This document shows, one piece after another, positions 47,334 to 57,138 of a stretch of DNA of 64,000 nucleotides (the first letter of the stretch is position 1; each line of letters opens with the position of its first letter). Origin of the DNA: Cyclobacteriaceae bacterium (GTDB taxonomy: Bacteria > Bacteroidota > Bacteroidia > Cytophagales > Cyclobacteriaceae); contig JAEUUG010000012.1 in NCBI GenBank assembly GCA_016787565.1, positions 124,001-188,000 on the forward strand. Reading direction: 5' to 3'. Both the position numbers and the translations under genes were made by a program. The notes below the pieces were generated by a model that saw nothing but the letters and a program-made list of their open reading frames with translations, had not been told where the DNA came from and ran no database searches.

Positions 47334-49208
47334 ATGGAAACGTTTATCCTGGAAGACATCACCTTTCCGAATTATCAATTCTTTTATGCGTTGGCTTTTC
47401 TGGTGGTCACGTTGATACTCCTTTACGAAGGAAAAAAGCAGAAACTCCCCGCTATATCCTGGTTGATGGTCATGGGGACCGGATTTCTTTTTTTTGTAGT
47501 CGGCTGTAAAATTATCGTGCTGAGTCTAGAGGACTGGAATTCAATTCTTCAATTAAAACCCCTTCACCATCCAACAGGTGCAACCGTGATAGGAGGAATT
47601 ATTTTTAGCTTTTCAGGAATATTGCTCGCTCGCTATGTGCTCAAGCTTCCGTGGCGTATGTTGGATGCTTATGCATTTGTCATTCCGATAGGCATGTTTA
47701 TTCAGCGCTTTGGATGCTTGCTGGCCGGGTGCTGCTACGGAAATCGAAGTGACTTACCCTGGGCGGTTCATTACGGTAAAACATCTACTGTATATTATCA
47801 ACAGCTGCACGAACAGCTCATTCCGGAAGGTGCAGCTCATTCCCTGGGTATTCATCCGGTACAAGTTTATGAATCCATCGGTTGCCTTCTCATTGTTTAC
47901 GTATTGATACGGCTGAAGAATTACTTTAATGCGCCCGGTAATTTCATTCTCTTCTCGGGTTTAAGTTATTACGTTATTCGATTTGTTCTCGAATTTTTCA
48001 GAGCCGATGCCGGGCATGCCTTTGGAGGAGCAAGCATCGGCTGGCTAAACCAGATTCAGTTGATCTTTGCTATTCTGGTAGTTGCTTCCATCGGCATTAT
48101 CATTTTCCGCGAAAAGCGAACACGATCGAATAAAAATTCAAATCAGCCATTGACCTTATCTTCACTGCGGTATGTCGGCTACTTTTTATGCCTCGCATTT
48201 CTTTTTGCACTAACATCCATCTGGCTAAACAGAACAGAAACACTTGTTGTGCTTATGGTCTTTGCTCCGATTGCGGTTCTCTTACTCATCCATATCTACA
48301 CCGTAGTCACCGTTCCCAACCTACGGTTGGCGACACTAAGCCTGATGGGGTGCTCCTTCCTGTTCATGAGCCAGGCAACTATTGAGAATCCAGATAAATC
48401 TGATGCTGACAAAAAAAATGCTGTCATTGAAACATTCTATGAAATTTCAGGGGGTGGAATGTTCGGAAACCACGAACTCAAAGATCAAACTGGAGAGATA
48501 CCTGGATCTGGTGGAAGCTGCGGATCAGCACCTACCCCGCTGTATACCAATGTTCACATTCATTATTCATCCGGGTCACTAGGTCTTTCACGAACATGGG
48601 TAAAGGCAGATGGGCAAACCTTAAAAGTAGGTCTTTACGGAACAGGCGGATCCATCCGGGAAGAAGTTGCCTCCGACTATCAATATGAAACTTCTAACCG
48701 CGTCAATTTCTGGAATATAAACCCAACTTTCAGACTTGAGCAAAAAGATATTGGGTTCGGCATTGGTGCTCTGGTTGGTGACTTGCATCGTATGGATACC
48801 CGCATAGACGGTGATGACTTCAACAACATTAGCGGTACGGGTAAACCTTCTCTTCTCAAATCATCATCGTTTCTTCCGCAACTCAGCCTGAGACTTGGTA
48901 ACCGGGAGAAATGGTTTGTAGAAGGTGGAATAAATGATCTCATGCCGACAGGCTTACCAGCAACCACCTATAAGGTTGGGGTGGGATTTGGCTTTAACAA
49001 CAAATCGGGTTCCTACTTATCGCTTGGTCATGCATCCTATAGCGCTCTTTACCTTGCACCCAAAGTCGTTATTAACAACAGTGTAACACTTGAGCCATTC
49101 CTTGGCTTTGGTAATAGCTTCCTGAACTCAATTGAAAGCGAAACCAATTTTATTGGTTCACTGAATCTTTCAGTCCGGTTGGGTCAAAGAAAAATCAGTC
49201 GTGAGTAA
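47334..49208 (+). CDS. Lgt-like membrane protein fused to a C-terminal beta-barrel-like domain (copy 1)
   Basis: 624 residues. Residues 1-265 form a seven-helix Lgt-type fold: IQRFGCLLAGCCYG at 123-136 (Lgt Arg/Gly box), HPVQVYESIG near 174, YYVIRFVLEFFR near 212. The Lgt HGG motif is replaced by ATVIGG (83-88), so the catalytic His is missing. Helices at about 282-303, 307-331 and 330-350 follow. The last, LRLATLSLMGCSFLFMSQA (330-348), looks like an exported-protein signal peptide with a lipobox. Residues 355-624 are beta-rich and barrel-like (AVIETFYEISGGGMFG, LGLSRTWV, LNLSVRLG). Housekeeping Lgt ends near 280. I infer a non-canonical acyl/diacylglyceryl-transferase-like polyprotein. Confidence 0.75.
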   Translation: METFILEDITFPNYQFFYALAFLVVTLILLYEGKKQKLPAISWLMVMGTGFLFFVVGCKIIVLSLEDWNSILQLKPLHHPTGATVIGGIIFSFSGILLARYVLKLPWRMLDAYAFVIPIGMFIQRFGCLLAGCCYGNRSDLPWAVHYGKTSTVYYQQLHEQLIPEGAAHSLGIHPVQVYESIGCLLIVYVLIRLKNYFNAPGNFILFSGLSYYVIRFVLEFFRADAGHAFGGASIGWLNQIQLIFAILVVASIGIIIFREKRTRSNKNSNQPLTLSSLRYVGYFLCLAFLFALTSIWLNRTETLVVLMVFAPIAVLLLIHIYTVVTVPNLRLATLSLMGCSFLFMSQATIENPDKSDADKKNAVIETFYEISGGGMFGNHELKDQTGEIPGSGGSCGSAPTPLYTNVHIHYSSGSLGLSRTWVKADGQTLKVGLYGTGGSIREEVASDYQYETSNRVNFWNINPTFRLEQKDIGFGIGALVGDLHRMDTRIDGDDFNNISGTGKPSLLKSSSFLPQLSLRLGNREKWFVEGGINDLMPTGLPATTYKVGVGFGFNNKSGSYLSLGHASYSALYLAPKVVINNSVTLEPFLGFGNSFLNSIESETNFIGSLNLSVRLGQRKISRE

Positions 49209-49343: not shown

Positions 49344-51113
49344 ATGTTCACCCATTCATTCCTTACATACCAGTCCTTTTACCTGCTGGCATTTCTGACT
49401 GCAATCGTTGTGTTGATTCTGGAGGGAAGAAAACGACACATACCGGCACTTCCCTGGTTTATGCTTATCTGCACTGGCTTCATATTTTTTATGGTTGGAG
49501 CGAAAGCAGCTTCACTTACTGACCATGATTGGAGGACAGTGTCACAATTTAAACCCTTAAACTATTCACCGGGCATAACTGTAATCGGAGGCATCCTCTT
49601 CAGTTTCGTTGGACTATTACTAGCCCGGTATTCGCTAAAACTTCCCTGGAGTATACTGGATGCATTTGCCTTTACAATACCCATCGGAATGTGCATTCAA
49701 CGCTTCGGATGCCTTCAGGCTGGTTGTTGCTATGGAACGGCTAGCGAAGTACCGTGGGCCATTACTCAAAAAATTGACGACCATCAAATACTGCAGAGTA
49801 CGGTTCATCCTGTTCAGCTATATGAATCTATTGGTTGTGTACTCATCGTGTTGCTCTTACTCAAGATGCGTAATCGATTCAAGGCCCCGGTGAACTTTCT
49901 GTTCTTTTCGGCTATGTGCTACTACGTTTTACGCTTTTGTCTTGACTTCTTCAGGGATATTCATGCGTATGCTTTTAACGTAAACTATTTTGCCGGGCTT
50001 ACGTCTGTGCAGTGGTTGTTATTTGCACTAATCATATGTTCCACCGTGATCATCTCCTGTCGTGAAAAATTCTATACGCTGAAAAAAGATAATCCTATAC
50101 ACATCTCGCGTTTGCGACACATCTTCTTCTTCGTGGTTCTATGCCTGATTGTACAAGCAGGTTCTTTGTGGATGAACAGCGTTGACCGTGTGATTATGTT
50201 CATTACGCTCACCCCTATTGTTGTTATCCTGATCATGAAGACTTACAGCGCTGTGATTATTCCTCCATTACGATTGGCAGCCTTCGCTTTGATTGGCTGT
50301 GCAGTACTTCTGATGAGCCAGACAACAGTTGAGTCTCGATCTGTAAAAAACGAAGTAACAGAGACATACAATACTATTTCTGGTGGCATTATGAGTGGGA
50401 AAATCAATTTCGAAAAGGAACTGGTAACTGGAGGAGGTACCTCCTGTGACGGATCAAGCGCACCGTATACAACTTCTAACCTGGCCTTCAAAGAAAAATA
50501 CTCATCGTTGGGTGGAGGTTATGCAAGAACATGGGTTAGAGGTGAGCAGAGCAAGCTAACGGCTGGACTAAATCTCGTTGCTTCTACATTCAGGGAAACC
50601 ATTGAAGTTGATTATAATGAGTTCTCTTCAAAAAAGAATACCTATTTCACAGCTAATCCATACCTCACCTCAGACTTCAAATATATTGGCTTCACAGCAG
50701 GCATGCACCTTGGCAACTCCAGCATCATCCAATATGATGATAGCGAGTATGCAGAAAGCATGCTTACAAATTCAACCTTTAAACCTCAATTTGGTATCCG
50801 GGCAGGGCGAGCGGATGGTGTCTATTTTGCGGGTCACATCTATGATAATTCCATTCCTCTAGGTCTGATACCATGGCAACTCGGAATCGGATTTGGAAGC
50901 AAAAAAATTGCTGGCAATTCGGTAGAACTAGGAGTTTCAGCTTACTCAATACTTTACATTGCCCCAACCTTTGTCATAAAGCAAAACGTAGTGCTAAAGC
51001 CTTATGTGGGTATAGGTCCGGGCTTTAACGCGGCCCTTGGCGAATCTGAATCATCTACAGGAATTGTTGGCGCATTCAGCGTATCGACCATTGTTGGGCG
51101 AAAAAAACGATAG
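49344..51113 (+). CDS. Lgt-like membrane protein fused to a C-terminal beta-barrel-like domain (copy 2)
   Basis: 589 residues, a divergent paralogue of 47334-49208 in the same order. Shared blocks are CIQRFGCLQAGCCYG, HPVQLYESIG and YYVLRFCLDFF, again with VIGG in place of the Lgt HGG. The final membrane segment LRLAAFALIGCAVLLMSQT (309-327) is again signal-peptide-like with LIGC. A barrel-like C-terminus follows (LGGGYARTWV, GAFSVSTIVG). Both copies have one conserved Cys soon after the junction (GGSCGSAP / GGTSCDGSSAP). The gap to copy 1 is 135 bp. Retention of the fusion in both copies argues against an annotation artefact. Confidence 0.75.
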   Translation: MFTHSFLTYQSFYLLAFLTAIVVLILEGRKRHIPALPWFMLICTGFIFFMVGAKAASLTDHDWRTVSQFKPLNYSPGITVIGGILFSFVGLLLARYSLKLPWSILDAFAFTIPIGMCIQRFGCLQAGCCYGTASEVPWAITQKIDDHQILQSTVHPVQLYESIGCVLIVLLLLKMRNRFKAPVNFLFFSAMCYYVLRFCLDFFRDIHAYAFNVNYFAGLTSVQWLLFALIICSTVIISCREKFYTLKKDNPIHISRLRHIFFFVVLCLIVQAGSLWMNSVDRVIMFITLTPIVVILIMKTYSAVIIPPLRLAAFALIGCAVLLMSQTTVESRSVKNEVTETYNTISGGIMSGKINFEKELVTGGGTSCDGSSAPYTTSNLAFKEKYSSLGGGYARTWVRGEQSKLTAGLNLVASTFRETIEVDYNEFSSKKNTYFTANPYLTSDFKYIGFTAGMHLGNSSIIQYDDSEYAESMLTNSTFKPQFGIRAGRADGVYFAGHIYDNSIPLGLIPWQLGIGFGSKKIAGNSVELGVSAYSILYIAPTFVIKQNVVLKPYVGIGPGFNAALGESESSTGIVGAFSVSTIVGRKKR

Positions 51114-51150: not shown

Positions 51151-52179
51151 TTGAAATCTTTTCCTGCTTTCTTATCCGGCTCATCCCTCTATAACATCAT
51201 TCACTTGTTGAAGAAGCACGCTGTGTCAAGAAAATTAACTTATAAACTACCCGATATATTCTTTTGGCCATTGCTGATGTTTCCGTTAGCCCTTTTCGAA
51301 AGAATCGTTTTTTACCTCCCCATCTCCAAAACTACTGTCATCAATCCGGTTTTCATTATCGGGCATTGGCGAAGCGGCACAACCTACCTGCACTACTTGC
51401 TGTCGCAGGATAAATCGTTCTATGCCCCCACCAATCTGGATGCATTTGTTCCGGAAGTAAACATACTAGGTGGCGCGTTGGCTAAAAAAATATTGCATCA
51501 TCGTTTGCCTCAAACACGCCCGATGGATGATGTTGAACTTCACCCGGACTTACCGCAGGAAGAAGAATTTGCTATTGCCAATCTTTCACCGTACTCTTTC
51601 TATCACGCATTGACTTTTCCAGATCATTTTAGAAAGTTGTTCAACCAATTTGTTTTGTTGAGAAATAGCTCAGAAAAGAAGTTACTGCGTTGGGAAAAAG
51701 TTTACACAACATATTTAAAAAAAATACAATACAAGGCTGGTAAGAAAAGGTTGTTACTTAAAAATCCTGTCAACACAGCACGCATACAGACACTCCTCAA
51801 ACTCTATCCGGACGCTAAATTCATATACCTCCATCGCGACCCAACAGAAGTGAAGCATTCAACCTTTCGTATGTTTCATGCATTGATAAAAATTAACACA
51901 TTACAACCCTTTGATACGGCTCAGTTGAAAAAGGATATCACCACCTGTTATACCGAAATGATGGAGGTTTATGAAAACCAACGAACTATACTAACACCGG
52001 AAAATTTAATTGAATTATCCTACCAGGATTTACTTGCAAATCCAGCGCATGTTGTTGCTTCCATTTATTCTCAATTTCAATGGAAGGGACTTGAAGCAAA
52101 TCAGTCAAACTTTGAACGATTTATAGAAAACCAAAAAGATTACAAACCTCATCTTTATACAGAAACAATAGTAAACTAA
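51151..52179 (+). CDS. Sulfotransferase-family protein (PAPS-dependent)
   Basis: 342 residues from a TTG start; a stop lies four codons upstream in frame, so no earlier start is available. The 5'-phosphosulfate loop is IIGHWRSGTTYLH (GHWRSGTTY at 71-79) and the 3'-phosphate element FIYLHRDPTEVKHSTFR (Arg229, Ser237), placing it in the Sulfotransfer_3 group. A hydrophobic segment at about 36-57 may associate it with the membrane. The acceptor is unknown; lipid or glycan is plausible next to the Lgt-like genes. The KAS III-like gene starts 8 bp after its stop, so the pair is almost certainly co-transcribed. Confidence 0.85.
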   Translation: MKSFPAFLSGSSLYNIIHLLKKHAVSRKLTYKLPDIFFWPLLMFPLALFERIVFYLPISKTTVINPVFIIGHWRSGTTYLHYLLSQDKSFYAPTNLDAFVPEVNILGGALAKKILHHRLPQTRPMDDVELHPDLPQEEEFAIANLSPYSFYHALTFPDHFRKLFNQFVLLRNSSEKKLLRWEKVYTTYLKKIQYKAGKKRLLLKNPVNTARIQTLLKLYPDAKFIYLHRDPTEVKHSTFRMFHALIKINTLQPFDTAQLKKDITTCYTEMMEVYENQRTILTPENLIELSYQDLLANPAHVVASIYSQFQWKGLEANQSNFERFIENQKDYKPHLYTETIVN

Positions 52180-52187
52180 AAAGAAAT

Positions 52188-53069
52188 ATGGGGACCCTCA
52201 TTTCACATATGCATAGCACCTTCAATCGGTCGAATGACTATACCCACACAGTGCTCAACCTCGCTGTGGATGTTCTTTCTCCCCTGTTGAGTAACGGAGC
52301 ACCAAAGACATTTTCTCACCTGGTGGTTTCCACAACTTGTCCTGATACACTGGCGCCTTCGTTGGGTCAGACCATCAATCAACACTTTTACCCGCGGTTC
52401 GCCAATGCTCATGTATTTGATCTAGTGCAGGGGTGTGCCGGTGGTGTTTCAGCACTCGTGTTGGCAAGCCAGTTAAGCGAAATCTCGAAAAGTCATGTAG
52501 CTGTTTTACTGGCCGATGCAGCACGACAATCGGTATCCGATCAAAATAATATCCGTCCTTTCTTTGGCAATGGAGCCTTCACCTGCGTCATCTCGACTAC
52601 TAAAGGCGACCAACGCATGATTCATCACAAAACAAAACAATATGAAAATCTGTCGGAACTGGTAACCGTAAAGTTGGGTCATCGGGCACATCAGGAAATT
52701 CTTCAAGGCAAGGAAAAGGTTTTACAAGACCCACTTGATCAGCTTGGGCTGCACATGAATCCTGTGTTAGCACTAAAGCTACTCCGGCATGCTGAAGAAT
52801 TCTATCACGAATTTCTGGAGGAATGCAAGACAAAACCGGATATGATGATTTTCCACCAGGTAAATCCTGAAATTCTGAACCTCTTACAGGGAGTATTCAC
52901 ACCGCATGTGGCCGAGTTTGTGAACCTGGCGGATGTCGTAGGCAACTGCGGTTCGGCCTCCTTTGCCATTGCGCTGGATCTGGTAAAAGAAAAAATACCG
53001 GGTAAAAAAGTCTTTCTATGCAGCTTCGGCACAGGTGGAGTAATCAGTGCCGGGTTATGGCAATTTTGA
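52188..53069 (+). CDS. Beta-ketoacyl-ACP synthase III-like enzyme
   Basis: 293 residues; the thiolase fold lacks about 30-40 N-terminal residues compared with FabH. The Cys-His-Asn triad is intact: Cys83 in FDLVQGCAGGVSAL, His223 in IFHQVNPEIL, Asn253 in VGNCGSASFAIAL. FFGNGAF matches the FabH FGDGA loop with Asp replaced by Asn. The last strand ends GTGGVISAGLWQF. It should condense an acyl-CoA starter with malonyl-ACP or transfer an acyl group. Context allows two readings: a partner of the sulfotransferase, or a BioZ-like starter enzyme for biotin, since bioFDA begins 1 kb downstream. Confidence 0.8.
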   Translation: MGTLISHMHSTFNRSNDYTHTVLNLAVDVLSPLLSNGAPKTFSHLVVSTTCPDTLAPSLGQTINQHFYPRFANAHVFDLVQGCAGGVSALVLASQLSEISKSHVAVLLADAARQSVSDQNNIRPFFGNGAFTCVISTTKGDQRMIHHKTKQYENLSELVTVKLGHRAHQEILQGKEKVLQDPLDQLGLHMNPVLALKLLRHAEEFYHEFLEECKTKPDMMIFHQVNPEILNLLQGVFTPHVAEFVNLADVVGNCGSASFAIALDLVKEKIPGKKVFLCSFGTGGVISAGLWQF

Positions 53070-53110
53070 TCATTGATTATATTGCAAGTAAAATTTATAC
53101 CCGAAAGCCT

Positions 53111-54019
53111 ATGAGCAAGTATATCACACGGACTTTGGTGACAGGAGCATTAGCACTCACAATAATACTCTTCTTTTCATCGAAGAGTTTTGCTCAAACC
53201 GACTCCACCCAGGTTCAGGTAGAAACCAACGATGGTAATGAATTCATTGGAACCATTACCTATCAGGACAATGAGAAAATAAAACTAGTCACCATAAAGT
53301 TTGGGGAGCTTACACTTAAACGGGTTGACATCGTACGGATAACACCCATTGTTACACAACAACTCAAAGCGGGTGTCTATTGGTTCGAAAACCCCCAAGC
53401 AACACGCTACTTCTGGTCAGCCAACGGATACGGACTAAAAAAAGGTGAGGGCTATTATCAAAATGTATGGGTATTATTTAACCAGGTCAGTGTGGGTATC
53501 ACCGATAATATTTCTTTTGGCGCAGGCCTTGTGCCCTTATTCCTTTTTGGAGGAACAGCCACACCCGTTTGGGTAACACCAAAAGTTTCGATTCCGGTAC
53601 AAAAAGATAAATTCAACCTGGGAATAGGAGCCTTGTTAGGCGCCACTTTAGGAGAGGAAGGAACAAGCTTTGGCTTACTATACGGCATCAGTACATTTGG
53701 TAGTCGCGATAAAAATTTTAGCATCGGCATCGGGTATGGGTATGCCGATGGTGAACTGGCCGACCGGCCGACATTATCCTTCAGCAGCATGATACGAACC
53801 GGGCAACGCAGCTATTTCATGACGGAAAATTATTACATCGGAACAGGTGACGAGGCTCTAATACTCTTGTCACTGGGAGGAAGGAGAATTATAAAAAAGG
53901 CCGGGCTTGATTTTGGTTTGTTTATTCCCTTCACCACCGAGCAGGATACCTTTATAGCAATACCCTGGCTTGGACTTACGTTGCCTTTTGGAAATGTCAC
54001 TCAGGCAAATAAGCGGTAA
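53111..54019 (+). CDS. Hypothetical exported barrel-like protein
   Basis: 302 residues from the ATG at 53111, where a signal peptide begins (RTLVTGALALTIILFFSSKSFAQ); the longer frame overlaps the preceding gene and has no signal. An N-terminal beta domain (about 30-90), VQVETNDGNEFIGTITYQDNEKIKL...GELTLKRVDIVRI, looks Sm/PEGA-like. It is followed by about ten amphipathic strands (FGAGLVPLFLFGGTATPVWV, SIGIGYGYADGEL) ending WLGLTLPFGN. The family is seen in Bacteroidota without known function. It lies between the KAS III-like gene (42 bp) and bioF (83 bp). Confidence 0.65.
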   Translation: MSKYITRTLVTGALALTIILFFSSKSFAQTDSTQVQVETNDGNEFIGTITYQDNEKIKLVTIKFGELTLKRVDIVRITPIVTQQLKAGVYWFENPQATRYFWSANGYGLKKGEGYYQNVWVLFNQVSVGITDNISFGAGLVPLFLFGGTATPVWVTPKVSIPVQKDKFNLGIGALLGATLGEEGTSFGLLYGISTFGSRDKNFSIGIGYGYADGELADRPTLSFSSMIRTGQRSYFMTENYYIGTGDEALILLSLGGRRIIKKAGLDFGLFIPFTTEQDTFIAIPWLGLTLPFGNVTQANKR

Positions 54020-54102
54020 TACTTCGTTTCGATCTTTATTGATACGATAGTCGGATACATGAAATTTGATTCCTTATTTTGCATCGAAAATAAACGATCA
54101 CG

Positions 54103-55251
54103 ATGCTGGAAGATGCGCTGTCGCAAAAACTGGAAAAGCGTAAACAGGAAAGTTTGCTTCGAAGCCTTATCACCACCTCAGGCTTAACAGACTTTTATTC
54201 CAACGATTACCTTGGGCTGGCCCGTTCGGAAGAACTCTATCAACAAATTCAGAACACTGTTCAAAACCTTCCGCATCAAAATGGAGCAACCGGCTCCCGA
54301 CTGTTATCCGGAAACAATGCTTATACAGAATCGGTAGAGCAGCAACTGGCAACCGTATTCGCTGGAGAACGCGCCCTCATTTTTAATTCCGGGTACACCG
54401 CTAACCTTGCTGTACTTTCTGCTTTACCCCAACGAGGGGATTCCATTCTGTATGATGAGCGGGCACACACGTGCATGAAAGATGGCGCACGACTAAGTCT
54501 GGCGCAACATTTTTCCTTTCGCCACAACGATTTAAATGATCTGGAACAAAAGTTAAAAAAAGCTTCAGGTCAAATCTTCCTTGCTGTTGAATCCATCTAT
54601 TCGATGGATGGTGATGAATGCCCGCTTACTGATTTGGTTACCTTGGCTGAAAAATACAATGCGAATATTGTTTTAGATGAAGCCCACAGCACGGGTGCTT
54701 ATGGTAAAAATGGCAGCGGGCTGGCATGTGCCGTATCGCTCCAACACAAAATTCCTGTTCGCATTTACACGTTTGGAAAAGCAATGGGCATCCACGGTGC
54801 CTGCATTGTCGGGTCTGAAAAAATTATTCAATATCTGATCAATTTTGCCAGGCCTTTTATCTATACCACAGCATTACCCCCGCATAGCATTGCCTCCATA
54901 GCATGTGCCTTTAAATTTCTGTCGAACACTATTTCACTACAAAATACATTACAGTCCAGAATAAACACATTTCTCGTAAACAGTAAATCCATTGCGCAGC
55001 GAATAGAAAGCAAAAGCGCTATTCAAACCGTTTTATTTCCTGGCAACGAAAACGCTCGATCGGCTGCGCACTATTTGCAACAAAATAGACTTGATGTCCG
55101 GGCTATCCTTTCTCCAACTGTTCCAGAAGGATCAGAACGCTTGAGAGTTTGCCTGCATACCTACAACACAGATGAAGAAATTCTAACACTATGCAAAGCA
55201 ATCAAATATCTCACAACAGAAAAAAAACAACATCTTGAACACCTAGATTAA
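54103..55251 (+). CDS. bioF: 8-amino-7-oxononanoate synthase
   Basis: 382 residues of the alpha-oxoamine synthase family, first committed enzyme of the biotin ring pathway (pimeloyl-ACP/CoA plus alanine). DFYSNDYLGLARS, NGATGSRLLSGN, VDEAHSTGAYGKNGSG-type block (VLDEAHSTGAYG), PLP lysine 226 in YTFGKAMGIHGACIVG. Serine palmitoyltransferase-like or sulfonolipid (cysteate) synthases belong to the same superfamily, but bioD and bioA directly behind it settle the assignment. bioD begins 5 bp after its stop. Confidence 0.92.
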   Translation: MLEDALSQKLEKRKQESLLRSLITTSGLTDFYSNDYLGLARSEELYQQIQNTVQNLPHQNGATGSRLLSGNNAYTESVEQQLATVFAGERALIFNSGYTANLAVLSALPQRGDSILYDERAHTCMKDGARLSLAQHFSFRHNDLNDLEQKLKKASGQIFLAVESIYSMDGDECPLTDLVTLAEKYNANIVLDEAHSTGAYGKNGSGLACAVSLQHKIPVRIYTFGKAMGIHGACIVGSEKIIQYLINFARPFIYTTALPPHSIASIACAFKFLSNTISLQNTLQSRINTFLVNSKSIAQRIESKSAIQTVLFPGNENARSAAHYLQQNRLDVRAILSPTVPEGSERLRVCLHTYNTDEEILTLCKAIKYLTTEKKQHLEHLD

Positions 55252-55256
55252 GCAGG

Positions 55257-55868
55257 ATGAACTACTTCATAACAGGAATCGATACGGATAGCGGCAAAAC
55301 ACTAGTTGCGGCTATTCTTTGCGAAGCGCTATTGGCCGACTACTGGAAACCCATACAGGCCGGACTCCCAAAAGATTCCGATACGGTAAAATCATTGATT
55401 CAAAATTCCAGATCATACATTCATTCTGAAAAGTTTTTGCTCCGCACTCCAGCCTCTCCGCATGCAGCGGCAAAAATTGATGGCGTTACCATTTCCCTGG
55501 CTGACTTTGTGCTACCAAAAACATCAAACACATTAATTATTGAGGGAGCAGGAGGTTGCCTCGTTCCCATCAATGATCAGGATTTCATCATTGATCTTGC
55601 GGCACACCTGCATACCGAAATTATTCTGGTTGCCGATCTTTACCTGGGCAGTATTAACCATACGCTGCTTACCATCGAAGCGTTGAAAAAAAGAAACCTC
55701 AACGTCAAAGGGATTATTTTTAACGGAGAGTCAAACCCGGAAAGTGAACGAATTATTCTTTTGCATTCGGGATTTCGATGCTTGTTGCGGATTCCAAAAG
55801 AACACGCAATTAATTCCGCCATCATCACTAAATACGCACAAATCGTGAACACCACCTGGAATGAATAA
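55257..55868 (+). CDS. bioD: ATP-dependent dethiobiotin synthetase
   Basis: 203 residues, slightly shorter than the usual 220-240. P-loop GIDTDSGKTLVAA, the substrate segment YWKPIQAGLPKDSDT, SPHAAAKIDG, and the EGAGGCLVPIND motif of BioD. It closes the ureido ring of dethiobiotin from DAPA, CO2 and ATP. Its end overlaps the bioA start by 8 bp, so translation is coupled. The C-terminal third is the shortened part. Confidence 0.92.
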   Translation: MNYFITGIDTDSGKTLVAAILCEALLADYWKPIQAGLPKDSDTVKSLIQNSRSYIHSEKFLLRTPASPHAAAKIDGVTISLADFVLPKTSNTLIIEGAGGCLVPINDQDFIIDLAAHLHTEIILVADLYLGSINHTLLTIEALKKRNLNVKGIIFNGESNPESERIILLHSGFRCLLRIPKEHAINSAIITKYAQIVNTTWNE

Positions 55869-57138
55869 ATTGTTGGAAATTGATAAAAAAAATATCTGGC
55901 ATCCGTTCACACCCCTGGCCGGAGGGATTGAGCCGTTGCTGATCACATCAGCATCAGGTATTTACCTGCATACGCAAGATGGCAGATCAATACTTGATGC
56001 CATTTCATCATGGTGGGTAAACCTCCACGGACATGCCCATCTGCATCTTGCTGAAGCCCTGGCCACACAAGCCAAAAAGTTGGAGCATGTTATTTTTGCG
56101 GGATTCACCCATGAACCAGCCATACAACTCTCCAAAAACCTATTGAGCATCGTACCCTCCAATCAATCTAAAATTTTCTTTTCTGACAATGGAAGTACTG
56201 CCGTTGAAGTGGCGCTGAAGATGGCCTTACAATACTGGCACAATCAAAAAATAGAGAAACGAAAAATCATTGCATTCGAAGGCGCATACCACGGTGATAC
56301 CTTTGGTGCTATGTCAGTGGGCGATCGTGGAATTTTCACCGCACCCTTTTCCAAATATTTGTTTGATGTTGAGTTTATTCCCTTTCCGGATCAAGCCAAT
56401 CACCAACAGGTTATCGATCAGTTCCAGAAAAGCGTAGCAGACCAAACCGTTGCTGCCTTCATCTTCGAACCACTGGTGCAAGGTGCTGCCGGTATGCGTA
56501 TGTATTCCCCGAAAATTCTGGATGAACTCATTGCCCTGGCGCATCAACACGATGTAGTTTGTATAGCCGATGAAGTCTTTACCGGATTTGGCCGTACCGG
56601 AAAACTCTTTGCATCAGACTACCTTAGAAATAAACCGGATATCATAACCCTTTCAAAAGGATTAACCGGAGGCATGATGCCCATGGGCATTACAACATGC
56701 GCTGAAAAAATTGTTGTCGCCTTTGATACGGATGAATTTTTAAAAACATTTTTCCATGGCCACTCCTATACCGGCAATCCATTAGCCTGTGCTGTTGCAA
56801 ATGCAAGTTTTGAATTGCTGATGCAGGATGAATGCGCTGCCAGTATTAATCGGATTACCAGGCAACATGAGAAATTTGCAGAAAAGCTGGATGGTCATCC
56901 TAACCTGCATGACGTACGGACACTGGGAACCATTCTAGCCATCGAGTTAAAAACAGAAGGAGGAAGTTCGTATACCAGTGACATCCGAAAAAAAATATAC
57001 CCGTACTTTTTAGACCGGAACATTCTCCTCCGGCCGTTGGGTAATATCCTGTATATCCTGCCACCCTATTGTATCACCAATGAAGAGCTGAGCATCATTT
57101 ACAGAACTATTGAAGATTTTCTATCGGGCTTAAAATAA
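55861..57138 (+). CDS. bioA: Adenosylmethionine-8-amino-7-oxononanoate aminotransferase
   Basis: 425 residues, class III PLP aminotransferase. IWHPFTPLAG, SSWWVNLHGHAHLHLAEAL (the BioA-specific active-site block), FEGAYHGDTFGAMSVGD, IADEVFTGFGRTG, cofactor lysine 266 in LSKGLTGGMMPMG, and HGHSYTGNPLACAVA are all present. It converts KAPA to DAPA using S-adenosylmethionine as amino donor. It is last in the bioF-bioD-bioA run. bioB, bioC and bioH/G are not in the window. Confidence 0.95.
   Translation: MNKLLEIDKKNIWHPFTPLAGGIEPLLITSASGIYLHTQDGRSILDAISSWWVNLHGHAHLHLAEALATQAKKLEHVIFAGFTHEPAIQLSKNLLSIVPSNQSKIFFSDNGSTAVEVALKMALQYWHNQKIEKRKIIAFEGAYHGDTFGAMSVGDRGIFTAPFSKYLFDVEFIPFPDQANHQQVIDQFQKSVADQTVAAFIFEPLVQGAAGMRMYSPKILDELIALAHQHDVVCIADEVFTGFGRTGKLFASDYLRNKPDIITLSKGLTGGMMPMGITTCAEKIVVAFDTDEFLKTFFHGHSYTGNPLACAVANASFELLMQDECAASINRITRQHEKFAEKLDGHPNLHDVRTLGTILAIELKTEGGSSYTSDIRKKIYPYFLDRNILLRPLGNILYILPPYCITNEELSIIYRTIEDFLSGLK

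Follow-up and report, generated by a model that had tools for sequence, protein, structure and literature searches.

Tandem Lgt-like/beta-barrel fusion genes in a Cyclobacteriaceae bacterium: candidate two-membrane polyproteins with an internal signal peptide

Introduction

One reading frame can code for both a polytopic protein of the inner membrane and a domain destined for export, the two being separated at an internal signal peptide, as in the cytochrome b/c1 polyprotein FbcH of Bradyrhizobium. The released part of FbcH remains anchored in the inner membrane, whereas the proteins described here would release an outer-membrane barrel. Two further systems bear on the comparison. The signal peptidase I substrates of Bacteroidota mostly start with Gln, a regularity known as the Q-rule, according to PMC5837995 and PMC10653852. 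E. coli Lgt (5azb) combines a seven-helix core with family PF01790, and changes at H103, R143 and E151 abolish its function, as reported in PMC4728403.

The present analysis concerns two tandem genes in a window of 64,000 nucleotides (contig JAEUUG010000012.1, positions 124,001 to 188,000), to which all coordinates refer unless a locus is named. Both products share the core and PF01790 with Lgt; in addition they have two more helices, a signal-peptide-like helix within the chain, and a barrel. As in the Q-rule substrates, Gln stands right after the hydrophobic segment of the exported part; in contrast to those substrates, the segment is internal and positions -3 and -1 are L/F and S/N instead of A-x-A. 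The literature searched describes neither an Lgt-barrel fusion nor the release of an outer-membrane barrel from an Lgt relative by way of an internal signal peptide. The Q-rule and signal peptides at internal positions are already known; the putative barrel release from an Lgt relative is new to the literature searched. A preprint on a lipidated peptide (PMC12636315) was set aside because it concerns a different system.

Results and discussion

The fusion and its distribution

Copy 1 (47334..49208, + strand) is an open reading frame of 624 aa and copy 2 (49344..51113, +) a tandem paralogue of 589 aa; the two are 41% identical. Both N-terminal halves belong to PF01790, with 89 bits for copy 1 (residues 7-257) and 91 bits for copy 2 against a curated cut-off of 24.9, and neither C-terminal half has a convincing Pfam family. 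Based on predicted helices and the match to E. coli Lgt, the seven-helix core of copy 1 covers residues 12-263 (47367..48122, +). It is followed by two additional predicted membrane helices, TM8 and TM9 (residues 277-324; 48162..48305, +).

Full-length fusions are present in related genomes. An order-wide search gave a match at E < 1e-70 in 35 of 390 genomes, 33 of these in one related family, and a phylum-wide search gave one in 3 of 395 genomes, so that the fusion is rare outside the order. The viral contigs searched returned a single distant relative, with the Lgt part only. The alignment used below (n = 48; 28 clusters at 60% identity) consists of 46 intact fusion open reading frames together with L017, truncated where its contig ends, and L103, in which an in-frame stop separates off the Lgt part. 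A more distant fusion found later, L179, stands outside the 48-row counts.

The Lgt-like half

When the fusions are mapped onto E. coli Lgt, none of the 47 rows compared retains the counterpart of H103, G142, N146 or E151. The R143 counterpart is changed in 41 of the 47 and kept in six, both window copies among them; of H103, R143 and E151, the window copies retain R143 alone. Conversely, the counterparts of Y26, R239 and R246 are mostly kept in the fusions. Where Lgt has its signature motif, the fusions carry CxxxxCC (C128, C133 and C134; 47715..47735, +, in copy 1), without variation among the 47 rows covering this motif, and Q124 together with these three Cys forms the strictly conserved centre of the fused half.

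Stand-alone "GCC-type" Lgt paralogues from many phyla share GCxxxGCC with the fusions, and their three Cys are present in 73 of 74 rows. They differ in keeping the counterparts of R143 (73/74), G142 (69/74) and Y235 (72/74), which the fusions mostly do not. This stand-alone class (L003 1447-2235; L024-L094), widespread across phyla, carries Cys for N146 and E151, with R143 kept. At 19 of 53 GCC-type loci the directly preceding gene belongs to one cluster, of which an example reads as LspA (label assigned by eye). The fused half thus descends from a plausible transferase, with a different, strictly conserved centre.

The last helix and the conserved Gln

Window positions 48321-48377 translate to LRLATLSLMGCSFLFMSQA (residues 330-348 of the 624-aa frame) and positions 50268-50324 to LRLAAFALIGCAVLLMSQT (residues 309-327 of the 589-aa frame). 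The original prediction had placed both 19-residue segments exactly, and in the predicted structure they are indeed the final hydrophobic helix ahead of the beta-barrel. The signal-peptide-like helix itself spans residues 330-346 in copy 1 (48321..48371, +) and 309-325 in copy 2 (50268..50318, +). It is the last of ten membrane helices in the structure model and, at 18 residues, tied for the shortest, the others having 18-25. Mean hydropathy and charge over the alignment, with some split predicted segments merged by eye, likewise give ten segments, the protein starting outside, the last segment running in-to-out and the C-terminal domain lying outside. In the 48 rows, the uncharged run ahead of the junction is mostly 12-19 residues long and preceded by R or K.

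At the helix end, a Gln that may form position +1 of a signal peptidase I cut is found in 47 of the 48 homologues (Q347 in copy 1, 48372..48374, +; Q326 in copy 2, 50319..50321, +). The sole exception, L018, has VTA↓Q four residues downstream (the arrow marks a putative cut), and the distant fusion L179 reads MGFQ at the junction. Upstream of the Gln, position -1 is S in 33 rows, N in six, A in five, G in three and Q in one; position -2 is T or M in 45/48; and position -3 is L or F in 41/48, with F in copy 1. Since a generic signal peptide does not need a conserved -2 residue, the motif may have another role. The Gln columns Q124 and Q242 of the inner-membrane part are equally conserved (47/48).

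The Q-rule habit is visible in this organism. In the sampled DNA of the genome, 44 of 78 signal-peptide-like N-termini that lack a lipobox have Gln near the hydrophobic end, in 26 of the 44 after Ala, and sampled N-termini of related genomes show the same. Genes of the signal peptidase I and glutaminyl-cyclase families are also present in the genome.

How strongly the junction resembles a cleavage site was assessed with a matrix built from 77 N-termini, which were picked by a simple rule and include some doubtful cases. Scored at the Gln, the junction reached a median of 3.0; true sites reached 6.6, with a lower quartile of 3.3. Within 16 positions, and with the Gln counted, the median best score was 3.5 at the junction versus 0.5 or less at the nine other helix ends. 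Leaving out the Gln lowered the junction median to -1.6, against 3.7 for true sites; this value corresponds to the 75th percentile of background windows from the same proteins and is ordinary for them. At -5 to -1 and at +2, with the Gln not considered, the junction is therefore unlike the cleavage sites of this group as the matrix describes them. Canonical residues do occur at the junction in certain clades, which read STA↓Q, ATA↓Q or VTA↓Q, but the junction is atypical overall, and neither N at -1 nor F at -3 suits signal peptidase I well. The relaxed -3/-1 rule was discarded as a test, as some other helix ends satisfy it equally often and it does not separate them from the junction. Given this dependence of the score on the Gln and the lack of separation by the relaxed rule, cleavage at the conserved Gln is rated as likely and no firmer. 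The plausible signal-peptidase site proposed earlier hence survives in its Gln, while the preceding residues make a weak signal peptidase I site; the suggested comparison of -3 and -1 across homologues gave a mixed result, with the Gln fixed and L/F and S/N at these positions.

The barrel domain and its invariant Cys

The full-length model of copy 1 has a mean pLDDT of 74.4 and a pTM of 0.49, with a poorly predicted linker. Modelled separately, the C-terminal domain (residues 364-620; 48423..49193, +) gave a barrel with pLDDT 77.6 and pTM 0.76; this model is a prediction from 10 sequences. Its 12 predicted strands agree with the even strand number of outer-membrane barrels. In Foldseek the top matches of the barrel were FadL, TodX and OmpG. 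A second structural comparison returned autotransporter barrels and KdgM with Z from 14.9 to 12.7 and rmsd mostly 3.2-4.0 (EstA 5.0), the best solved match being an autotransporter barrel (Z 14.9, rmsd 3.3 over 194 residues). Such likeness concerns the fold and does not imply a function. A sequence comparison of the barrel with the PDB gave no match. In copy 2, the linker and barrel domain were located by alignment at 50322..51110 (+).

Between the helix and the first strand of copy 1 lies a linker of about 17 residues (347-363; 48372..48422, +) with low pLDDT, strandless in the model and with one short helix at 358-362. A linker of this length is too short to bridge the periplasm, and an outer-membrane location of the barrel would consequently imply a cut.

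The loop between strands 1 and 2 holds C396 (48519..48521, +), which is Cys in 48/48 homologues, 30 to 53 residues after the Gln. By sequence and alignment, its counterpart in copy 2 is C368 (50445..50447, +). The surrounding loop is rich in G and S, and two free-standing barrels have CxxC there. As judged by conservation, C396 is a better candidate than C340 in the last helix (see below) for any Cys chemistry.

Free-standing relatives

The collected sequences include five barrels encoded by genes of their own, each with an N-terminal signal peptide. Four of them adjoin a fusion, and for the fifth, the solitary L127, genome G099 has a fusion between the same neighbours. Their cleavage sites scored 7.4-8.9 in four cases and 3.3 in the remaining one. 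In a barrel tree of 52 rows, which left out L017, the free-standing genes fall in three places and require three state changes; a single clade was rejected (p-AU 8.8e-53). The tree has long branches, above all the pair L108/L112, and we therefore rely on the two starred-branch placements, L126/L127 and L129.

Processing model and alternatives

The fusion, its conservation, the predicted topology and folds and the free-standing relatives were all obtained by computation; from them we infer that the protein is cut, where and by which enzyme, and where the barrel ends up. In the reading we prefer, with a probability of roughly 0.55, each gene encodes a two-membrane polyprotein in which an internal signal peptide is cut at or near the conserved Gln and the barrel goes to the outer membrane. 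The N-terminal part, with its seven Lgt-type helices and two more, would be an Lgt-derived inner-membrane protein. The tenth hydrophobic segment, which is short, has a basic start and is oriented N-in/C-out, would act as the internal signal peptide and thread the C-terminal domain into the periplasm via Sec. Signal peptidase I would then cut at or near the Gln, usually before it, and the freed 12-strand barrel would begin with Gln, as do other exported proteins of Bacteroidota, prior to its assembly into the outer membrane. The N-terminal part would not leave the inner membrane, and its last helix would be the spent signal peptide. Release of the barrel from a polyprotein had been put forward in the original prediction; the Gln, the N-in/C-out orientation, the barrel fold and the free-standing relatives speak for it indirectly, and the atypical residues at -5 to -1 against it.

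The same residues lend some weight to a helix that is not cut at all. As a transmembrane anchor, its TSQ, MSQ or TNQ end would cap the helix or contact the Lgt-like part, and the barrel would be tethered at the periplasmic side of the inner membrane. The odd residues at -3 to -1 make an anchor possible, and it fits the conserved T/M at -2, the equal conservation of Q124 and Q242 and, with the Gln disregarded, the dissimilarity of -5 to -1 to cleavage sites. However, the domain so tethered is modelled as a 12-strand outer-membrane barrel, it has free-standing exported relatives, and a linker of some 17 residues falls short of the outer membrane, which leaves the anchor an unlikely reading, albeit one of substance. 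Alternatively, another protease or another site could release the barrel, e.g. after an A-x-A further along the chain, such as APA↓D, VPA↓D or SQA↓T, the Gln being kept for other reasons. Nine of the 48 rows fail the relaxed rule at the Gln, and all nine have a stricter A-x-A-like site at most 10 residues downstream; copy 1 itself offers SQA↓T. Nevertheless, such strict sites also arise by chance in the vicinity of other helix ends (30/48 at the junction versus 37/47 at TM4) and the Gln is the fixed element, so a cut elsewhere appears improbable. An internal start codon just ahead of the last helix could also produce the barrel, with no cut required. In copy 2, an in-frame ATG followed by a basic residue is located 28 codons before the Gln, but in-frame ATGs at a distance of 15-45 codons upstream of the Gln are found in 14/48 rows only, at scattered positions. 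As it is not conserved, we rejected an internal start as very improbable.

A different processing route was part of the original prediction, in which Leu-x-Gly-Cys within the last helix served as a signal peptidase II-type lipobox and the Lgt-like part possibly diacylated its own internal Cys, C340 in copy 1 (48351..48353, +) and C319 in copy 2 (50298..50300, +). The motif does occur in both window copies, LIGC of copy 2 fitting the strict lipobox pattern and LMGC of copy 1 the loose one only, and the domain belongs to PF01790. Among the 48 aligned homologues, however, the loose pattern is confined to these two paralogues (2/48), and the column of C340 holds Cys in three rows and L, V, A, I, G or T in the others. 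Conservation of the Cys, proposed as a check, therefore failed. In a bacterial lipoprotein the conserved lipobox Cys closes the hydrophobic segment; the Cys of either window copy sits mid-helix and is followed by hydrophobic residues. The lipobox is accordingly best regarded, on the alignment, as a shared accident of two paralogues. The Lgt-like half argues in the same direction: the residues at the H103, G142, N146 and E151 positions and, in most rows, at R143 are described as essential or central in E. coli Lgt in PMC4728403, and their loss makes classical self-lipidation unlikely. Taken together, the lipobox route is close to excluded.

Returning to the polyprotein reading, a repurposed three-Cys enzyme might modify C396 of its own barrel in cis before the chain is cut, the weak site delaying release until then and the modification ending up in a surface loop at the outer membrane. 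We consider this elaboration a long shot. If the polyprotein reading holds, one open reading frame would supply integral proteins to both membranes of a diderm, an unusual way of building an envelope, and Sec, signal peptidase and BAM would be predicted to handle an internal signal peptide after nine other hydrophobic segments. The degraded Lgt centre and the invariant barrel Cys may point to an undescribed activity. Dozens of genomes in the order share the arrangement, so these predictions can be tested in culturable bacteria.

Genomic context

Neighbourhood analysis yielded no functional partners: the Hymenobacter-like loci show vertical synteny and occasional tandem copies only, and genes labelled by eye as SDR-like and topoisomerase-like are present at 23 and 17 loci, respectively. 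On the 3' side of the window pair (51151-57138) follow a sulfotransferase-like gene, a short ketoacyl synthase III-like gene and relatives of bioF, bioD and bioA, for which no connection to the fusion was found. The genome carries three more PF01790 genes, one of them the stand-alone GCC type (L003). Two Lgt genes in one genome (G000:C3:152714-153421 and G000:C11:436321-437379) match PF01790 with 221 and 212 bits, which makes Lgt multi-copy in that genome.

In L103 (1501-2307 and 2341-3336), a single TAA in frame, placed after the Lgt core and ahead of helix 8, leaves open reading frames of 268 and 331 aa; the split may be natural, decay or a sequencing error. L129 (1765-6627) carries a fusion, a free-standing barrel and another fusion, all on one strand, and this array is a sign of repeated tandem duplication, like the window pair.
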